Origin: Bacteroidota bacterium
Lineage (GTDB): Bacteria > Bacteroidota > Bacteroidia > NS11-12g > UBA955
Length of the DNA stretch: 64,000 bases
Direction of reading: 5' to 3'
NCBI GenBank assembly: GCA_023957335.1
Contig: JAMLHC010000004.1
Location: forward strand, 1-64,000
Below, in pieces: positions 51,607-62,982 of this stretch. Both the position numbers and the translations under genes were made by a program. Under the pieces are notes generated by a model. That model saw only the letters and a list, made by a program, of their open reading frames with translations. It was not told where the DNA came from and made no database searches. Numbering within the stretch: the stretch's first letter is position 1; every line of letters begins with the position of its first letter.

Positions 51607-52107
51607 ATGGCAACATTTCAAAATAATCCTGACGAATGGCAACGACTTGACTGGTCAATTTTGCAAAATGGCTGGACAAGTTTGTATTGGAAAAAGGAAA
51701 TTTTAGAAACTGATTTGATTTGGTTTAAAAGCGAAAACTATTCAATCGTAGAATTTGACTGCAAAACGTGGACAGGCGAGAACGAAATGCATAAGCGGCT
51801 AAAGGATAAATTGATGTTCCCTGACTATTACGGAGAAAATTGGGACGCACTCAATGACTGTTTATCGGACTTAGAAATAACTAAGGCTGGACAAATTGTA
51901 GTATTCCGGCACTTGGACAACTTGGACACCAAGAGCGTTCATACGTTGCTTGACATTTTTGCACGCAATTCAAGACTGCAAATGCTATTCGGCAAACGGC
52001 TTATAGTTTTAGCTCAGGTTGACAATCCAAATTATCAAATTGACCAGGTTGGTGCGACTCCTGTAATGTGGAATGGAGCAGAATGGTTAGACTCAAACAG
52101 AAAATGA
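51607..52107 (+). CDS. Barstar-family protein
   Basis: The 166 residues contain the barstar (ribonuclease inhibitor) fold. The segment MFPDYYGENWDALNDCLSDL (about 76-95) has the conserved Tyr, Asn-Trp-Asp and acidic surface used to block barnase-like nucleases. It has about 45 extra N-terminal residues compared with barstar. No ribonuclease gene is adjacent, so it may be a free antitoxin or immunity gene. It is followed 17 nt later by an attC-like palindrome, as expected of a captured cassette. Confidence 0.82.
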   Translation: MATFQNNPDEWQRLDWSILQNGWTSLYWKKEILETDLIWFKSENYSIVEFDCKTWTGENEMHKRLKDKLMFPDYYGENWDALNDCLSDLEITKAGQIVVFRHLDNLDTKSVHTLLDIFARNSRLQMLFGKRLIVLAQVDNPNYQIDQVGATPVMWNGAEWLDSNRK

Positions 52108-52485: not shown

Positions 52486-54018
52486 ATGAGCGAGAATTTA
52501 GAATTAGAAAAAACCCTTTGGCAAGCAGCCGACAAACTTCGCAACAATATGGATGCGGCTGAATACAAACACGTTGTTTTGGGTTTGATATTCTTAAAAT
52601 ATATTTCAGATGCTTTTGATGAACTCTATAACCAATTAGAAGCGACCAAACACGAAACAGGAGCCGACCCCGAAGACAAGGACGAATACACAGCCGAGAG
52701 AGTTTTTTATGTGCCACCGCAAGCACGTTGGAAATGGCTACAAGGCAGGGCCAAATTGCCGACAATCGGGAAAGACATTGATGAAGCAATGGACAGCATT
52801 GAAAGAGATAATGCTGTTCTGAAAGGCGTTTTGCCAAAAGACTATGCCCGACCTGCACTCGACAAACAAAGACTTGGTGAACTCATCGACCTGATTGGGT
52901 CAATCACCTTGAGCAAAGGCGGAAACGGAAAAGGCAAAGACGTTTTGGGCTTTGTGTTTGAATATTTCTTAGGACAGTTTGCAGATGCCGAAGGCAAAAA
53001 AGGCGGACAGTTTTATACGCCTGCCAGCATTGTAAAACTCTTGGTTGAAATGCTTGCCCCCGAAGCTGAAAAACGAGTGTATGACGGCTGTTGCGGAAGC
53101 GGTGGAATGTTTGTGCAAAGTGAAAAATTTATTGAAATGCACGAACACCGAAAAGGTAAAATTTCCATTTTCGGACAGGAAAGCAACCCAACCACTTACA
53201 AGTTGGCAAAAATGAATTTGGCTATTCGTGGGATTGATGCCAAAATTGAATTGGGTGATACCTTGATGAATGACAAATTCCCTGAATTGAAAGTGGATTA
53301 CATCATAGCCAATCCACCTTTCAACATCAGCGACTATAACATCAACAAAGCCGAAACCCACAAATGGAAATTTGGCATACCGCCAACAGGCAATGCCAAC
53401 TACGCTTGGTTGCAACACTTTGTGAGCAAACTTGCCCCTTTTGGCACAGCAGGAATTGTTTTGGCAAACGGCAGTATGAGTTCTGAAATAGCCACCGAAG
53501 GTGAAATCAGAAAAGCAATGATTGAAGCCGACTTGGTGGATTGTATGGTTTCTTTGCCTTCGCAGTTGTTTTACAATACTCAAATACCCGCTTGCTTGTG
53601 GTTTTTGGCTCGCAACAAAACCGAAACCACCAAATTCAGAAACCGAACCAATGAAGTGCTTTTTATTGATGCACGGGAATTTGGCACAATGATAAGCCGC
53701 AAACAGCGTGAACTAACAGACAACGACATTGTCAACATTGCCGATACTTACCACAAGTGGCGAAGCAAAGAGCAATTTGCCGAATACAAAGACATTGCAG
53801 GTTTTTGTAAGTCTGCCAACATTCAGCACATCCGCAAAAACAACTATATCCTGACCCCGGGGCGATATATTGACTTTAAGGAAGTGGAAGAAGATGGACA
53901 AGCATTTGACGAGAAAATGCAAATGCTCACTTCTACCCTTTCAGAACAAATGCAGAAAGCGAATGAATTGGACGAAGCGATAAAAGTTAACTTAGAGAAA
54001 ATTGGATTTTTAATTTGA
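52486..54018 (+). CDS. hsdM: Type I restriction-modification system, DNA methylase subunit HsdM
   Basis: This 510-residue N6-adenine methyltransferase subunit has the HsdM N-domain ([17 protein letters not shown]), [11 protein letters not shown] (about 173-183), AdoMet motif DGCCGSGGM (200-208) and catalytic NPPF (276-279). Its sequence is clearly different from the first hsdM in the window, so the two systems are independent. It is the first gene of a six-gene operon, and the kinase gene starts 4 nt after its stop. Confidence 0.96.
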
Positions 54019-54022
54019 AAAT

Positions 54023-56071
54023 ATGGCTCTAATAAATCAAACACTGAATGGATATACCTTCACCGAATTTATTGGTGCAGGTGGATTTGGTTCAGTATAT
54101 AAGGCTACAAAAGATGGCAGCCTATATGCGATTAAGGTTTTCCGAGAAGATTACATACTTCAAGAATACAAGCAAAGCGGGCAAAACAACCGTATTCAGC
54201 GAGAAATTGATATAATGAAAACCGTTAATCATCCTTACTTGATAAAATATGTGGATGATTTCAAAGGCAGTGATTTAAGTGTGCCATCTTACTTTTTGGT
54301 AATGGAATTTGCCGAAGGAGAGACACTACAGAAGCTAATTAAAAGGAATGCCCTTCAAAGCGAAGGACAAATCATTTCCATTTTTAAAAATATACTACAA
54401 GGTATCAAAGCATTACACCAAATCAGGGGCAATGATGATGGCAAAGGAATTATTCACAGGGATTTGAAGCCTGAAAATATAATTGTGAATGGAGATAAAG
54501 TTAAAATTCTAGATTACGGAATTTCTAAAGTAATTGACTATACAACCCTGACAAGTACAGGTAATTTTTTAGGCTCTCCGCTTTACTCATCACCTGAACA
54601 AATAACAGACAGTAAAAATATTGACAAGAGAAGCGATTTATACACCTTAGGAGTAATTCTATATGAAATGTTAACTTCAAAAGTTCCTTATGAATTTAAC
54701 AATCTTCCCGAGTTAATTGATAAGATAAAGAACGAAAACCCTATACCCCCAAGAAAATACTTTGCTGATATCAAAAACAAATATGAAAACATAATTTTTA
54801 AACTTCTTGAGAAGAATCCCTATCAACGTTATTTGAATATAGACGAATTGATTTCTGTCTTTGAATCAGATGAAGCAATTCCAAAGCGTGAATATGATTT
54901 GAGTCCGAGATTTGTTTTGCGTTTATGGAATGATGGTTCAGCTTTAGAAGTTTATTTAAAAGACCACAATGAAACGTTGAATGTGGATTTTCCTGCAATC
55001 CACCAATTTCAGCAGAAAAAATTATTAGAACGTATTCAAGGACCTGAGTTCTGCACTATTATCGACCCTGAAACTGTTCGTTTCGCTTACGACACATATA
55101 CGGACACAGTTGGGCTGAAAAAACTTCCATACTGTCCAGAAAATTTTGAAGTGATTACACCTGCCTATTTGAATTCATACCGAAAGCAGCAGGAATACGT
55201 AAAACTCGTCATTGATGAAGAAGCCAAATTAGGTGCTGACATTTTTGTTTCACCGTATCATTATACGCATAACACGAATGTGTTACCTACCTACAAGCAA
55301 AATCCAGTAGAACAATGGTTTGATTTAGATATTAAATTACTCAAAGAAGCCATTGATTATAAAAATTCAATACCTGAGTATGCTGACAAAAAACTTTATG
55401 CAGGTATATGTATAAATAGCGGTAGTCTAACCGACAATCAATACAAAAATGACCTTCTAAACTATTATTCTGCCCACGAATGTGATGGATATATTGTGTA
55501 TGCTGATGGTATTGATAAGAATACTACACAAGTTACTCTTTATCATTACATTGATGCACTATTGAAACTTCAAAGATTTACAGGGAGACCAGTAATTGCA
55601 GGACGTTTGAATAGCTTGGGATTGGGGCTTATTTCATTAGGCTTGGCAGGTTTTTCCGCAGGTGCAGCAAGGTTTGAAAGTTTTAGCGAAGAATTACACA
55701 AAGATAGAACTCAAGGATTTAATCTTTACGAAAGGTATTATTTCCCTGAGTTGTTGGGTACTGTTTCCATTGAAAAGAAAAGACCGACCAGATTAAATCA
55801 AATTTCAAGTGTTTTGGGTGCTTGTCAGTGTTTATACTGCCTTGGTAAAGCAGCAGAAGATGTAATACAAGCACAGAACAATAAACTGCATTACATTCAT
55901 TCGGTAACCCAAGAAGTAGAGACAATTAAAAACACTACGGACAAGCGAGAATATTTTTTAGATAGAATTGATGCAGCTATAAGAAATTATCAACGCTTGA
56001 CAGCCGTTTATAAGCGTGATGACTACAAACACCTTTTAGTTTGGAAAGAAGTTTTTGAAAATATTAGATAG
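54023..56071 (+). CDS. Ser/Thr protein kinase fused to a barrel-like C-terminal domain, inside an RM operon
   Basis: Residues 1 to about 285 form an apparently active eukaryote-like kinase: GAGGFGSV (18-25), AIK with K38, HRDLKPEN (145-152), DYG (164-166) and SPE (190-192). No membrane helix follows. Residues 290-682 contain successive strand-helix units (GADIFVSPYHY, LYAGICINSG, CDGYIVYADG, RPVIAGRLNS, AGFSAGAARFE), which suggests a TIM barrel. CQCLYC (601-606) with H623/H626 follows, recalling the CxCxxC zinc site of tRNA-guanine transglycosylases. The kinase call is firm. The barrel assignment is inference. Its place between hsdM and hsdS suggests a defence role. Confidence 0.85.
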   Translation: MALINQTLNGYTFTEFIGAGGFGSVYKATKDGSLYAIKVFREDYILQEYKQSGQNNRIQREIDIMKTVNHPYLIKYVDDFKGSDLSVPSYFLVMEFAEGETLQKLIKRNALQSEGQIISIFKNILQGIKALHQIRGNDDGKGIIHRDLKPENIIVNGDKVKILDYGISKVIDYTTLTSTGNFLGSPLYSSPEQITDSKNIDKRSDLYTLGVILYEMLTSKVPYEFNNLPELIDKIKNENPIPPRKYFADIKNKYENIIFKLLEKNPYQRYLNIDELISVFESDEAIPKREYDLSPRFVLRLWNDGSALEVYLKDHNETLNVDFPAIHQFQQKKLLERIQGPEFCTIIDPETVRFAYDTYTDTVGLKKLPYCPENFEVITPAYLNSYRKQQEYVKLVIDEEAKLGADIFVSPYHYTHNTNVLPTYKQNPVEQWFDLDIKLLKEAIDYKNSIPEYADKKLYAGICINSGSLTDNQYKNDLLNYYSAHECDGYIVYADGIDKNTTQVTLYHYIDALLKLQRFTGRPVIAGRLNSLGLGLISLGLAGFSAGAARFESFSEELHKDRTQGFNLYERYYFPELLGTVSIEKKRPTRLNQISSVLGACQCLYCLGKAAEDVIQAQNNKLHYIHSVTQEVETIKNTTDKREYFLDRIDAAIRNYQRLTAVYKRDDYKHLLVWKEVFENIR

Positions 56072-56075
56072 TACT

Positions 56076-56711
56076 ATGTTTAGATACGAAAGTGAAATGA
56101 TACCAGTATTGATTGACAACCTTTCCAAGGTTTTCAAAACAGAATACATTGCCACTGAATTCAGCACAGGAAATGGTGTTGCCGATTTGGTTTTTACAAC
56201 TGAAATGAATGATGAAGATTTATTTTTAAATGACTATTCGTTAATGTCTCTTTTTGTCAGCCTGTTTCAACAAAATAAGCATATAACAACAAAGAAATTA
56301 CAGAAAAGCAACCTAGATAAAAACAAGCTTAAGAAGTTGCTTATCCAACTTGAAGTGAATGATTTTATTGAGTATGATGGTGAAGTGATAAAAAGGAATA
56401 GAAAGTATAAGGCTCACACCCGTAATTTGTTGTCGGTTGAAGCTAAACTGAATGATTGGAAATCGGGATTTTATCAAGCCTTGCGGTACAAGTTTTTTTC
56501 GCATCAATCCTATTTAGCCTATCCTGAAAAAAATATCCATCGAGTAGATTTAGACTTGCTTAAAGAACACAATATCGGTTTAATCTCAGTTGGAGAAGAT
56601 AGGATTCGATTTATATCCAAACCAAAAACAGAGAAGCCCAAGGATTTAACATCCTACTTTTTTCTGTCTGAGCTTTTCGCTCAGCAATTTAAAGCAACGC
56701 AAGTAATATGA
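56076..56711 (+). CDS. Putative winged-helix/PD-(D/E)XK nuclease-like protein of the RM operon
   Basis: The 211 residues have a split nuclease-like core: GVAD (D37) near the N-terminus, then E122-A-K124 in SVEAKLNDW, followed by GFYQALRY (Q134). This is the D...ExK...QxxxY pattern of restriction-endonuclease-like folds. Between them (about 50-105) lies a helical segment that reads like a winged HTH. The start at 56076 was chosen over a TTG at 56055 inside the kinase gene. It follows the kinase by 4 nt and overlaps the next gene by 4 nt. Nuclease activity is inferred only. Confidence 0.65.
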   Translation: MFRYESEMIPVLIDNLSKVFKTEYIATEFSTGNGVADLVFTTEMNDEDLFLNDYSLMSLFVSLFQQNKHITTKKLQKSNLDKNKLKKLLIQLEVNDFIEYDGEVIKRNRKYKAHTRNLLSVEAKLNDWKSGFYQALRYKFFSHQSYLAYPEKNIHRVDLDLLKEHNIGLISVGEDRIRFISKPKTEKPKDLTSYFFLSELFAQQFKATQVI

Positions 56712-57199
56712 TACTTACCAATAACCAAACAGCTGAAATAAAAGGAGCAATCGCATCTTCATTAGAGCGAGTTTACAGTCAGGACTTTTCATTGATTCAA
56801 AGAGAAGCACACGAAAGGTCAATCGCTTTCAGGTTTGGACTTTATTTTTCAGAAATCATTTCATTTACTTCTTTTGGAGATGATGAAGAACTGACTATTG
56901 ATTTTGATTACAACCGCAATGGCGAAGGCGTAAAGGATATGAAAGGCTTTTCTTTAAGTCACGGTGTTTATCCTGATATAATTTTACACCGTAGGAGCTT
57001 TAATAATAAGAATGTTGTAGCATTAGAGTTTAAAGGCCATTGGACAGCAAATGGTAGAGATGAAGAAAAACTAATTGGCTTTACACACCCAACACGAAAT
57101 AACTATCAATACGGATTAGGTTTATTCATTCGCCTTGGACGGACTTTGGACGAATGTGAATTAGTGTATTACAAAGAAGGAAGAATTGAAAATGACTGA
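56708..57199 (+). CDS. Putative PD-(D/E)XK nuclease-like protein of the RM operon
   Basis: The 163 residues contain PD90 in YPDIILHRR and E107-F-K109 in VVALEFKGHW, spaced as in PD-(D/E)XK folds. An early helix contains E36 (EAHERSIAFR). RDEEKLIGFTHP and YGLGLFIRL fit the following helix and strand. It overlaps the upstream gene by 4 nt (ATGA) and hsdS by 8 nt. It may cut nucleic acid or be a non-catalytic relative. The sequence alone does not decide. Confidence 0.65.
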   Translation: MILTNNQTAEIKGAIASSLERVYSQDFSLIQREAHERSIAFRFGLYFSEIISFTSFGDDEELTIDFDYNRNGEGVKDMKGFSLSHGVYPDIILHRRSFNNKNVVALEFKGHWTANGRDEEKLIGFTHPTRNNYQYGLGLFIRLGRTLDECELVYYKEGRIEND

Positions 57200-58382
57200 T
57201 TGGAAAACATATAGGTTGGGGGAGTTTACAGACATAAACCCACGAGTTACTTTGAAACAGGGTAATGAATATTCATTTATTGAAATGAAAGATTTGAATG
57301 CCACTTTCAAATATGTTTCGCCATCCGCAAAAAGAGAACTCAAAGGCGGTTCAAAATTTCAGAATGGAGATACCCTTTTTGCACGAATTACACCTTGTTT
57401 GGAAAATGGGAAAATCTGTCAAGTAAAAAAACTTGAAAATAATGTAGGATTTGGGTCAACTGAATTTTTGGTTTTCAGGGGCAAAGAAAATGTGTCTGAT
57501 AACGATTTTGTTTACTACTTGTCAAGGTCTGAATTTGTAAAGAATAATGCTGTCCAGATGATGACAGGTACTTCGGGTCGGCAAAGAGTTGAAAAGTCAG
57601 CTTTGGAACAATTGGAAATCACCACCCCCGACCTACCCACCCAACGCCAAATCGCCCAAATCCTTACTTCCCTTGACGACAAAATAGAACTCAACCTGCA
57701 AATGAACCAAACTTTGGAAGCTATGGCACAAGCCATTTTCAAAGAGTGGTGTACAACGGAAAATGATGAAATACCTGACGGTTGGAATGTAAAAGAATTA
57801 GCCGATTTAGCAGATGTTTCTTCAAGCAAACGAATTTTTAGAGAAGAATACACTTTGTCAGGCGTTCCTTTTTATCGTGGCAAAGAAGTCACCCAGCTTT
57901 CCAATGGTGAGAGTATTAGCACAGAACTTTTTATATCAAATGAGAGATATGAAGAAATAAAAGAAAAGTTTGGAGTACCACAGGTTGGGGAGATATTAAT
58001 TACTTCAGTTGGAACAATTGGTTCAATTTGGTTAGTGGATAATGACTCACCTTTTTACTTCAAAGACGGAAACGTTACTTGGATTAAAAACTATAAAACA
58101 CAAGTTAGCGGTGAGTTTATATATCAATGGTTAAAGACTAAAGATGCTCAAGAACAAATAAAATCTGTTACAATTGGAAGCACTCAACAAGCATTGACAA
58201 TTTCAGCATTAAAGGGTTTGAAAATTTTGATTCCAGACGAGCAAACAGTAATTGGTGTAGTTGAACAATTAGGAAAAATCAATGCCAAAAGGATTAATAA
58301 CACAAATCAGATTCATTCATTAGCTCAAACCCGTGAAACGCTTCTACCCAAGTTAATGAGCGGACAATTAGAAGTAGTATGA
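57192..58382 (+). CDS. hsdS: Type I restriction-modification system, specificity subunit HsdS
   Basis: The 396 residues form two target recognition domains separated by conserved helices. The first TRD ends in [24 protein letters not shown] (first half-repeat) and the second in [14 protein letters not shown] with [12 protein letters not shown] at the C-terminus. The ATG at 57192 was chosen over a TTG at 57186. It overlaps the upstream gene by 8 nt and hsdR by 4 nt. It recognises a different target from the first system's HsdS, as the TRDs are unrelated. Confidence 0.93.
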
Positions 58383-61300
58383 GAAACAGCATCACCGAAA
58401 ACGAAATAGAAGAAATTGCCCTTAGCTACCTGCAAGGTTTGGGCTATACCTATCAGTTGGGAACAGTCATTTCCCCTGATGGCGAGCACCCCGAAAGGCA
58501 ATACAACGAAGTGGTGTTGGTTACTCGTTTGCGTGATGCCATAGACAAACTCAATCCCAACATTTCGCAAGATGCCAAAGAAGATGCCCTGAAAAAAGTA
58601 TTGCGTACCGAAAGCCCCAATGCCTTAATCAACAACGAAACATTTCACCGCTACCTGACAGATGGCGTAGATGTAGAAATGAGAACCGAAAGCGGCATTC
58701 GTGGTGAGAAAATTTATATCGTTGATTTTGAGAACCCTGAGAACAACGAATTTTTAGCCGTCAACCAGTTTACGGTAATTGAAGGCAACCAAAACAAACG
58801 CCCCGATATTATCCTGTTTGTGAACGGCCTGCCCTTGGTGGTGATAGAACTCAAAAATGCCGTGGATGAAAACGCCAACCTGAAATCGGCATTCAATCAA
58901 CTGCAAACCTACAAACAAGCCATTCCTTCGCTGTTCACTTACAATAGTTTAATGGTAATCAGTGATGGTTGGGATGCACGTTGCGGCACCATTACCAGCG
59001 ATTATGGCAGGTTTATGACTTGGAAAACTAAAGACGGACAGACCACAGCCGACCATTTGCAACCCCAAATGGAAGTGATGTTTCACGGAATGTTGAACAA
59101 ACAAACGCTGTTGGATTTAATCCGCCAGTTTATCGTATTTGAAAAAAGCGACAGTAAAACACTCAAAAAGGTTGCTGCCTATCATCAATATTATGCTGTA
59201 AATAAAGCCGTAGAAAGCACCGTAACCGCCAGCGGAAGCAATGGCGACAGGCGTGGCGGTGTAATTTGGCACACACAAGGAAGCGGCAAAAGTTTGAGTA
59301 TGGTTTTCTTTTCAGGGAAGCTCATCATTGAGCCGAGAATGGAAAATCCAACCTTGGTAATTCTGACCGATAGAAACGACTTAGACGAGCAACTGCACGA
59401 AACTTTTACCAATTGCCAACAACTTTTAAGGCAAGAACCCCAAAAAGCCGAAAGCCGCAGAGAATTACGCCAATTACTCAAAGTGGCATCAGGTGGTATT
59501 GTGTTTACCACCATTCAGAAGTTTATGCCAATGCCTTCCGACATTGTGCAGCCCGAAAATGAAAATGTAGTAAACGAGCCAAGTGTAGAATATATCGGTG
59601 CAGACATACAGGCACTCAGCGAACGGAAAAATATTGTAGTCATAGCAGATGAAGCCCACAGAAGCCAATACGATTTTATTGATGGCTTTGCCAAACATTT
59701 GCGTGATGCTTTGCCCAATGCCACTTTTATAGGTTTCACAGGTACACCCATTGAAACCACCGACAAAAACACCCAAGCCGTATTCGGCAACTATGTGGAC
59801 ATTTACGACATTCAGCAAGCCGTAAATGACAAAGCCACCGTTCCGATTTTCTATGAAAGCCGTTTGGCAAAAGTCCATTTTAACGAAGACGAAAAAGTAA
59901 GCCTTGACGAACAGTTTGAAGAACTCACCGAAGGCGAAGAACTGAGCAACCGCCAGCAAATGCGGGCAAAATGGACACGCTTGGAAGCCATTGTTGGCAA
60001 CCCCAACCGTTTGCAGAAAATAGCCGAAGATTTGGTGTATCACTTCGAGCAACGCAATGCCGTGTTGGACGGCAAAGCAATGATAGTGTGTATGAGCCGC
60101 AGAATTTGTGTGGAACTCTATGAAGCCATTATCAAAATCCGTCCGTTGTGGCATTCAGATGATGACGACAAAGGCACGATAAAAGTAATAATGACAGGCA
60201 GCAGCAGTGATGCCTTGAATATGCAAGCCCACATTCGCAACAAACCGAGAAGAAAAGCTATTGGCGACCGTTTGAAAAATCCGAACGACCCTTTGAAATT
60301 GGTCATTGTTCGGGATATGTGGCTTACAGGATTTGATGCCCCTTGTTTGCATACGCTTTATGTGGACAAGCCAATGCGTGGTCACAACCTAATGCAAGCC
60401 ATAGCACGGGTAAACCGAGTATTTACCGAAGGCAAAGAAGGCGGTTTGGTGGTGGACTATTTGGGCATTGCACAGGAACTGAAAACAGCCTTAGCTGACT
60501 ACACTGCAAGCGGTGGCGAAGGCAAACCCACACTTGACCAGGAATTGGCAGTTGCCAAAATGTTGGAACTGCACGAAGCAATAGACTATCAATTAAGGCA
60601 TTTTGATTGGCGTAAATTCTTCACGCTTACACCCGAAGAAAAATTGAAATTCATTCCCGTTATCGTGGATTACATTTTCAGTCAGGAAAACGGAGAGCAG
60701 AGTTTTACCGAAAACACCAAAAACTTATTGAAAGCCTTTGCGATTTCTGTTCCCCACGAGCGGGCAATGGCCATTCGTGATGATGTGGCGTTGTTTCAAG
60801 CCATCAAATCAAGGTTGGTAAAAATATCCGACCGAAACGAAGGCGGTAAAACGGATGAAGAAATGGAAACCGCCATCAAGCAAATCATTTCAGACGCCAT
60901 CACAGCCGACAATGTAATTGACATTTTTGATGCCGCAGGTCTGAAAAAACCCAACATTGAAATCCTTGACGAACGCTTTTTGCAAGAACTGAAAGACTTG
61001 CCACAAAAGAATTTAGCCGTTGAGTTGTTGAAAAAACTACTCAAAGACGAAATCAAGAAGCGGACAAAAATCAACTTAGTGGAGAGCAAGAAATTTTCAG
61101 AAATGTTGGAAGATGCTATCAAACGCTACCACAACGGAATGATTGACACAGTAGAGTTTTTAGAAAAAGTGCTTATTCCTTTTGCCCAACAAATGAAAGA
61201 AGCCGACCAACGTGGCGACAAATTGGGATTGGATTACAGAGAATACGCCTTTTACACCGCTTTGGAAGTAAACAACAGTGCAGTAGCTGTATTGGGTGAC

Positions 61301-61534
61301 GACATTCTAAAACACATTGCCCAAGAACTATTAAAAACCGTCCGCAACAGCACGACCATAGATTGGACAATTAAAGAAAGCGTACAATCGGCATTAAGAC
61401 GAAACATTAGAAGAATACTAAGACTACACGGTTATCCGCCAGACTTACAAGAAAAAGCGGTTGACACGGTAATCACACAAGCGAAAATGTTAGCAGAAGA
61501 CTTGGTAAAAAACGGAGACAAAAAAGAAGAATAA
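58379..61534 (+). CDS. hsdR: Type I restriction-modification system, endonuclease/translocase subunit HsdR
   Basis: This 1051-residue nuclease and translocase has D143 and E157-x-K159 ([10 protein letters not shown]...VIELKN) as the nuclease site, HTQGSGKS as Walker A, ADEAHRSQ as DEAD-type box, [14 protein letters not shown] and AIARVNRVF. It begins within the hsdS stop (ATGA). It is intact and ends the operon. A hairpin follows 21-65 nt after the stop. Confidence 0.96.
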
Positions 61535-61652: not shown

Positions 61653-62074
61653 ATGACAGACAAAAAAACAGAAAATCAGTTGTTTAAAAAGCAAAAAAGA
61701 ACGCTTACTTTTCACGATGACGAATTCAAAAGAAAAGTTATTGCAGAGTATTTGGATGGTAACGCTTCCAAAGAATCAATTCAAAAAAAGTACGGTATTA
61801 AAGCAGACAGTGCCATTACCCGTTGGATGCGAAAATTTGGAATGTAGATCCTTTTGCAAAACGCCTTACCTTGGCTTCGTGAAAGAACATCATTTAAAAA
61901 AGAAAAGGCAGGGCAAATTGGAGCTTGAAAACAAAGCGCTTCAGAAAAAAATCAGAGACCCTGGAAGCCAAACTAACACAAGAAAAACTGCGTGCAGAAA
62001 TGTATGCCAGAGTGATAGAAAAGGCTGAAAATGAAATGAATATCCCTATCTTAAAAAGTCAGACACCTAAGTAA
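61653..62074 (+). pseudogene. IS3-family transposase orfA, broken
   Basis: The first 64 codons encode the HTH region (DDEFKRKVIAEYLDG, IKADSAITRWMRKFGM), and a premature TAG ends it at 61847. The coiled-coil end (ELENKALQKKI, then LTQEKLRAEMYARVIEKAENEMN) is readable only after at least one more frame change near 61960. No functional product is expected. Confidence 0.85.
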
Positions 62075-62082
62075 TCCTTGAG

Positions 62083-62982
62083 ATGAAAATGACCTATTCG
62101 CAACATAGCCTAAGCGATTATTGTCGGTTATTTGGTGTTCCAGGCAATCGTTCTATCAGCATTTTAGAAAAAAAGAACATAAAAGTTTCCACAACGAAAT
62201 GATTCTACAACAAGTCAAAATGATTCGGGAAGAACATCCACGATTGGGTACCAGAAAACTCATGGTTTTGCTGTACCCTTTCCTCCATGAACATCAAATT
62301 ACATTAGGCAGAGATGCTCTGTTTGACCTTCTGGGGCATCACAAAAATGCTTGTTAAAAAACGAAAAAGACAGGTACAAACAACCTTTTCTAAACACTGG
62401 ATGCGCAAGTGGCCCAACCTTGTAAAAACTATGAGGCAGACACCATAAACCACCTTTGGGTTAGTGACATCACTTATTGGAAATCCGGCAACCACACCTT
62501 TTACATTAGTTTGATAACCGATGTGCGTTCACGTAAAATCATCGGATACAGCCTGGATAATAACCTAAAAGCTCAATCAAGTCTGGAAGCCTTAAATATG
62601 GCTATCTCCTACAAACCCCATCAAACCGCCCACATCATCCATCACTCAGACAGAGGCTCTCAATACTGCTCTGCCGAATATGTAGCCAAGCTCCTAGAAA
62701 ACAACATCAAAATAAGCATGACCGAGTCAGGCGAACCCGACAGACAATGCCTACGCTGAAAGAGTAAATGGAATTTTAAAAGAAGAATACCTTTACCAAT
62801 ACAACCCTAAAAACATGGCTCAAGCTAAAGCTATTTTGGCTCAAACTATTCAACTTTACAACCAAAAAAGACCTCATTTGAGTTTAGAAAATCAAACCCC
62901 AAACCATGTTTTTAAAACCCATACACGAAAGTTTAATAGACTTTGGAAATCCTATCAAAAAACTAATTTTGTAAACCCATGA
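62083..62982 (+). pseudogene. IS3-family transposase orfB (DDE), broken
   Basis: The integrase core can be read in pieces: YSQHSLSDYCRLFGV, then after a shift near 62140 RQSFYQHFRKKEH and EEHPRLGTRKLM. After shifts near 62340 and 62415 come WVSDITYW (first Asp) and HHSDRGSQYCSAEYV (second Asp). After a shift near 62745 comes AYAERVNGILKEEYL (catalytic Glu). At least four frameshifts make it inactive. Confidence 0.88.

Follow-up and report, generated by a model that had tools for sequence, protein, structure and literature searches.

A Hanks-type kinase fused to a predicted TGT-type barrel and linked to a nuclease-fold partner in restriction loci and beyond

INTRODUCTION

Why does a protein kinase fused to a barrel resembling a tRNA-guanine transglycosylase (TGT) sit within a restriction–modification (RM) operon, and could such a barrel still exchange bases? 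TGT-type enzymes carry out base exchange in tRNA and, as DpdA, in DNA. The gene in question lies in a stretch of 64,000 nucleotides from a Bacteroidota bacterium (contig JAMLHC010000004.1), referred to here as the window. An earlier note, made from the letters of the window, had read the C-terminal part of the kinase as a distant TGT relative with a zinc site, and had raised the possibility of a link between the kinase and base exchange or base recognition. Here, we analyze the fold, the active-site residues and the genomic company of this protein.

RESULTS

The operon that hosts the gene is a type I RM system, with hsdM, hsdS and hsdR all present (Table 1). The kinase–barrel gene and the gene that follows it, termed the partner, are placed as a pair between hsdM and hsdS. 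The ORF, its Pfam match and the model described below bear out the earlier picture of a TGT-like barrel fused to a kinase inside an RM locus, and residue 290, where the barrel region starts, does correspond to base 54890.

Table 1. Features of the RM operon and of the kinase–barrel and partner genes (window coordinates)
Feature	Position	Strand	Basis or remark
hsdM, type I RM	52486..54018	+	Pfam N6_Mtase, E 4.5e-108
Kinase–barrel ORF	54023..56071	+	682 aa; inside DNA-restriction gene cluster
Hanks-type Ser/Thr kinase domain (residues 1–270)	54023..54832	+	Pfam PF00069, E 3.6e-51
Predicted TGT-type barrel with C-terminal zinc/helical subdomain (residues 290–682)	54890..56068	+	AlphaFold2, Foldseek, VIA-align, ten-homologue alignment
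D348 codon (domain D59), inferred equivalent of TGT Asp102 and of the DpdA DSG Asp	55064..55066	+	Conservation, profile match
S545 codon (domain S256), inferred Asp280 position, without Asp	55655..55657	+	Spacing argument
CQCLYC, presumed zinc-binding C601, C603 and C606	55823..55840	+	Invariant in ten homologues, kept in Priestia
H623 codon, presumed fourth zinc ligand	55889..55891	+	17 residues after last Cys; invariant in ten homologues
Partner gene, predicted PD-(D/E)XK nuclease fold with inserted winged helix	56076..56711	+	211 aa from ATG; alignments, AlphaFold2, VIA-align
163-aa gene resembling PD-Lambda-3_A	56708..57199	+	PADLOC, E 4.2e-14
hsdS, type I RM	57186..58382	+	Pfam Methylase_S, E 4.2e-33
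hsdR, type I RM	58379..61534	+	NCBIfam hsdR, E 2.8e-196

The Pfam protein kinase match covers residues 11–270. All features of a Hanks-type Ser/Thr kinase (Gly loop, VAIK Lys, HRD, DFG and APE) are present, here as GAGGFGSV, AIK, HRDLKPEN, DYG and SPE, and the key residues are conserved in 13 aligned homologues. With its motifs intact, the kinase looks active. A Hanks kinase domain is common to the defence kinases PD-T4-6, Mad6 (of MADS), Stk2 and PglW, with E-values down to 1.9e-61 (PD-T4-6), and M and S genes are a further feature in common with MADS, but the matches end at the kinase domain. Judged by the set mad1–8 the locus is not MADS: similarity to mad2, mad5 and mad6 is general, runs through the M, S and kinase domains, and stays below the NCBIfam cut-offs. 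To our knowledge, none of PD-T4-6, Mad6, Stk2 and PglW combines a TGT-type barrel with a nuclease partner.

Residues 290–682 were modeled with AlphaFold2 from an alignment of ten homologues (pLDDT 71, pTM 0.76, a middling confidence overall). The model has strands alternating with helices and a helical C-terminus. Its top Foldseek match in the PDB was a TGT (3bll, E 4.7e-6), and a TGT also gave the highest query-normalized TM (0.49); class II aldolases ranked behind. VIA-align 2 was then run on Foldseek's best 1000 chains, and the best 50 entries listed were all TGTs (Z 18.8–20.4), from mouse, human, Zymomonas and Pyrococcus. These superpositions took in ∼300 of the 393 residues, including the C-terminal part, at an rmsd of 3.3–3.8 Å. 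For the predicted model, the structure search thus pointed to a TGT-type barrel, as the earlier note had supposed.

Sequence comparison gave a different picture, in keeping with a distant relationship as earlier supposed. The region has no family model match in Pfam, NCBIfam or PADLOC, and the PF01702 and TIGR TGT models matched none of 20 barrel members at E up to 10. Searches of Pfam, NCBIfam, PHROGs, PADLOC and PDB sequences, with single proteins and with profiles, returned nothing useful for TGT recognition; a lone match to archaeosine synthase was weak (E 0.019) and was set aside. In HH-suite comparisons, the barrel family scored P 0.006 against TGT and P 0.07 against DpdA, and the true pair of TGT and DpdA scored P 0.03. 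Among decoys, P was 0.3–0.4 for class II aldolase and Dus, and 0.0006 for DHDPS. Because this last decoy barrel outscores TGT, profile scores were not counted as evidence. What speaks for TGT is therefore the predicted structure, together with a zinc motif that comes after the barrel as in TGT. On these grounds, residues 290–682 very probably form a TGT-type barrel.

The zinc motif itself is well conserved. C601, C603, C606 and H623 are invariant in ten homologues at 50–97% identity, and are kept in the Priestia homologue, which is 25% identical. Thus the CxCxxC...H site that the earlier note had described after the barrel is indeed there, with H623 and H626 standing, as it had counted, 17 and 20 residues past C606. 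H623 is likely the fourth ligand, since it is invariant and H626 varies. Its spacing of 17 compares with 26 in TGT. In shuffles of the domain, which contains seven Cys, CxCxxC appeared in 37 of 20,000, so its occurrence is above chance. The site is absent from the Kocuria, Polaromonas and Natribaculum members and from some of the RES-linked barrels described below. Among canonical TGTs of Bacteroidota (L024–L045), many appear without the CxCxxC cysteines, with the downstream HN motif retained.

In Zymomonas TGT, the nucleophile is Asp280, assisted by Asp102 (PMC6165067). The equivalent of Asp102 appears to be kept. D348 sits in a conserved [IL]D[PT] motif, where TGT has D102 (DSGG) and DpdA has DSG, and the region gives a local profile match to DpdA 'kifldsga'. 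The column is Asp in 24 of 26 relatives and Glu in the other two. The equivalent of Asp280 is another matter. The nucleophile follows the end of strand 7 by 17 residues in TGT (MGVG-TPEDLLEAVARGVDMFD) and by 16 in DpdA (GFG-ITSRPLMERYPWYSCD); in the kinase–barrel family, 16 residues past strand 7 reaches Ser545 (IAGRL-NSLGLGLISLGLAGFS). This register rests on spacing, as the model is weak (pLDDT 31–48) over domain residues 250–290, the stretch that holds the nucleophile position. Across the 26 relatives, the column is Ser, Thr, Ala, Gln, Glu or Cys, and in none is it Asp; the kinase-linked proteins have Ser, Thr or Ala. The position of TGT D156 falls in a conserved Pro-aromatic-His stretch (P-Y-H), and pocket residues other than D348, P411 and glycines differ between the kinase-linked and RES-linked branches.

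As judged from these alignments, the barrel would be unable to form the covalent TGT intermediate. Of the catalytic Asp residues, for which the earlier note had suggested a check, the Asp102-like one is thus present and the nucleophile Asp absent at its inferred position. Base exchange, one of the two functions suggested earlier, is not supported, Ser545 and its column being without Asp. General scans of the neighbors recognized no preQ0-pathway, dpdB–K or queuosine-type genes. A loose alignment had offered E552 (domain E263) as the nucleophile, and this candidate was rejected, its distance from strand 7 being 23 residues versus 17 in TGT and 16 in DpdA. That register is further weakened by a lack of conservation in remote members, and the model there is too weak to settle it.

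The partner is predicted to have a PD-(D/E)XK nuclease core with an inserted winged helix (wHTH), in an AlphaFold2 model with pLDDT 88. VIA-align matched it to PaqCI (Z 10.5), XisH (9.8), Can2 (8.5) and VC1899 (8.4), as well as to EcoT38I, HindIII, Hjc and BamHI. Its motif residues are E, D, ExK and QAxR, within an invariant pattern E..E..G.G..D..E-A-K-L..W..G..YQA.RYK. The window protein and its Priestia counterpart are homologous (E 8e-16), and the nuclease motif E..D..ExK..Q is kept in all partner sequences, including those of Priestia, Natribaculum, Kocuria and Polaromonas, the last of which is without the wHTH. Hence the partner is, by its model, a PD-(D/E)XK nuclease fold with an intact motif, and a putative nuclease.

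To what extent do these genes travel together? Kinase, barrel and partner occur together in 16 of 16 loci, from Bacteroidota, Chlorobiota, Bacillota, Actinomycetota, Pseudomonadota and one haloarchaeon; some of these are metagenome bins, in which a mobile gene may be credited to the wrong organism. One genome scan supplied eleven homologous loci, and a partner search those of Kocuria, Polaromonas and Natribaculum. The barrel profile recovered these three (E 8e-25, 1e-8 and 2e-13, respectively), none of which had been used to build it. In one arrangement, a fused kinase–barrel gene is followed by the partner. In Priestia and in Kocuria (where the fused ORF encodes 696 aa), the partner is convergent with the fused gene. 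Kinase and barrel are separate adjacent genes in Natribaculum and Polaromonas, and in Natribaculum partner, kinase and barrel form three genes within 2.8 kb.

The surroundings vary more than the module. Four loci (L002–L005) have hsdM, kinase–barrel, partner, the 163-aa gene, hsdS and hsdR in this order, as far as the contigs extend. The 163-aa gene is found only in RM-embedded versions of the module, and probably belongs to the RM operon rather than to the module. At another locus (L009:5208-12409), the pair is flanked by mod and res of a type III RM system, and at three more (L007, L008 and L010) no RM genes were recognized beside it. No viral homologues were found. Wider surveys of genomes from the same phylum and family yielded almost no further copies, which fits a rare mobile module. 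These data show that kinase, barrel and partner are a portable module, mobile between RM types and plasmids. In Priestia, a protein with repeated treble-clef zinc fingers (DUF4379, CapR) adjoins the module (L013:11837-13561).

The barrel also has relatives without a kinase. The Priestia barrel as query reached stand-alone proteins of 380–460 aa on Gordonia plasmids (E 1e-6), and these in turn led to many more. At the plasmid loci examined, an Xre/MbcA/ParS antitoxin gene adjoins the barrel gene in 14 of 14 cases and a RES toxin gene lies beside it in 13; at the Gordonia bronchialis locus only Xre was found. In a tree, one branch with support 82/75 splits the kinase-linked from the RES-linked barrels. 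Thus, relatives of the barrel sit beside RES-Xre toxin–antitoxin pairs, and the barrel is therefore associated with growth-arrest effectors of different kinds. Known RES-Xre modules consist of two genes, whereas at these plasmid loci the barrel gene is an additional third; searches of the open-access literature turned up no account of a TGT-like third gene in RES-Xre loci. In Alphaproteobacteria the barrel gene and Xre-RES point the same way, and in most of the Actinobacteria examined they are divergent (L046–L057, L144, L145). On a Celeribacter plasmid (L054:3956-8918), the barrel-Xre-RES trio lies directly upstream of the anti-phage genes qatA and qatB.

DISCUSSION

We propose, at a probability of roughly 0.55, that the gene encodes the sensor-kinase of a three-part module, in which kinase, nucleophile-less barrel and nuclease-fold partner would serve as an alarm-and-kill device against viruses. 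With the nucleophile lost, the role of the barrel is probably to bind a base or nucleic acid, without exchange. As to what is sensed, which way the kinase is switched, what it phosphorylates and whether defence is the purpose, we infer the following scheme. The ligand may be the anticodon region of tRNA, or DNA that is modified, nicked or single-stranded, and the trigger may be an attacking phage or a breakdown of the RM system. Sensing by the barrel would switch the kinase. The kinase would phosphorylate and so release (license) the partner nuclease, a guess from gene linkage, and the outcome would be a response of the abortive-infection type.

The barrel can be set beside several relatives of known function. 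It has in common with the TGT family (PF01702: bacterial TGT, archaeosine TGT and QTRT1) the predicted barrel, the C-terminal zinc site and the Asp102-like residue, but differs in being fused to a kinase, in having no detectable sequence match and in lacking the nucleophile Asp. Like it, DpdA of the Dpd system and deazaguanine phages is a TGT-type protein in a restriction setting, with a DSG-type Asp on the same strand. Yet DpdA has Asp at the inferred nucleophile position (CDSSSW/VDSSTW) and is accompanied by preQ0 genes (phage 9g), of which none was recognized here. QTRT2, the noncatalytic TGT subunit, offers a precedent of the same fold: it keeps the zinc site, has lost catalytic residues (the equivalents of Asp102 and Asp280 being Cys and Glu) and acts as a binding partner (PMC6165067). 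QTRT2 lost catalysis by another route than the kinase–barrel family, which keeps the Asp102-like residue and lacks the Asp280 equivalent, and it is without linkage to a kinase or nuclease. TGT homologues are also found in BREX-related capture systems, where they are proposed to be DNA-modifying enzymes (PMC12839542).

Other systems resemble the module in its layout. In immune loci that often adjoin RM genes, ssDNA activates the kinase CapK, which acts on a partner, and in the VapKSC form a nuclease is activated in this way (PMC13373217). CapK/CapS and VapKSC are thus alike in pairing a kinase with a protein partner in immune loci and, for VapKSC, in controlling a nuclease. But CapK belongs to the GHKL kinases and CapS is a STAS-wHTH repressor, whereas the kinase of our module is of the Hanks type, carries a TGT-type barrel and is joined by a PD-(D/E)XK–wHTH partner. 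The EcoprrI type I RM locus includes PrrC, which the linked RM system keeps silent and a phage anti-restriction factor releases (PMC2610378). PrrC too is a guest linked to a type I RM operon, with a connection to tRNA, but is an anticodon nuclease of the ABC-ATPase kind and a single protein. No kinase–TGT–nuclease module turned up in searches of the open-access literature. We regard the module as apparently undescribed and as kin to kinase-controlled effector modules, and there is some likelihood that it is more than that.

Alternative explanations have to be weighed against this proposal. Control of RM systems by linked regulators is known, and the pair could regulate its host operon, by phosphorylating HsdM or HsdR or by repressing transcription through the winged helix of the partner. 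The location between hsdM and hsdS and the wHTH are what this predicts; but the pair also occurs in a type III system and outside recognized RM loci, all partners have the nuclease motif and the Polaromonas partner has no wHTH, and we consider such a role unlikely. Lower still we place an altered chemistry, such as that of an N-glycosidase, in which the barrel itself would be the toxic effector, with the kinase or Xre-RES holding it in check. Conservation of D348 and of residues at strand ends, and the association with toxin loci, would be accounted for, yet every module already has another effector-like protein (nuclease fold or RES), and beyond D348, P411 and glycines the pocket varies between the two branches.

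The remaining two alternatives concern the barrel itself, and both seem to us less probable again. That it is a TIM barrel unrelated to TGT, with a convergent zinc motif, is what one might suspect from sequence searches that never reach TGT, from the better profile score of DHDPS and from the class II aldolases among the Foldseek matches. A chance resemblance sits poorly with VIA-align entries that were TGTs throughout the best 50 listed and extended into the C-terminal part, with the top Foldseek TM and with a zinc motif that stands, as it does in TGT, past the barrel. Least probable, in our view, is an active DpdA-like or TGT-like transglycosylase, regulated by the kinase, that inserts or removes a modified base so that the RM operon restricts by the mark. 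The fold, the Asp102-like residue and the zinc site would suit such an enzyme, and E552, seven residues past the nucleophile position and Asp or Glu in most relatives, could substitute. But the nucleophile position is without Asp in 26 of 26 relatives, E552 is replaced by a non-acidic residue in Kocuria, Polaromonas, Natribaculum and Shinella members, P-Y-H stands where TGT has D156, and neither preQ0 nor dpd genes were recognized nearby.

The sensor-kinase proposal can be extended, tentatively and with more doubt than belief, to the barrels beside Xre-RES. Dead TGT-type barrels might be general immunity sensors of the modification state of tRNA or bases (7-deazaguanine-modified phage DNA or damaged tRNA, for example) that trigger different killers, one branch acting via a kinase and a PD-(D/E)XK nuclease and the other via the NAD-depleting toxins of Xre-RES. 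If true, a nucleophile-less TGT branch tied, in bacteria and archaea, to kinase–nuclease and toxin–antitoxin modules would represent a base-recognition fold recruited as an immunity sensor. The module is a small, testable unit of three genes, cleanest on the haloarchaeal plasmid, and the stand-alone barrel would be an unrecognized third gene for RES-Xre toxin–antitoxin loci.

The host operon in the window shows traces of its own history. Compared with three of the loci of the same gene order (L002, L003 and L005), hsdM, kinase and partner are 87–99% identical and the 163-aa gene 71–74%, with hsdS only 28–32% identical. The region 56708-58382 looks like a specificity swap that took along the small 163-aa gene. 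Just upstream of the operon lies a gene for a Barstar-like inhibitor (51607-52107; Pfam E 1.5e-19), and directly downstream of hsdR are fragments that, by eye, resemble an IS3-type transposase (61717-62759).
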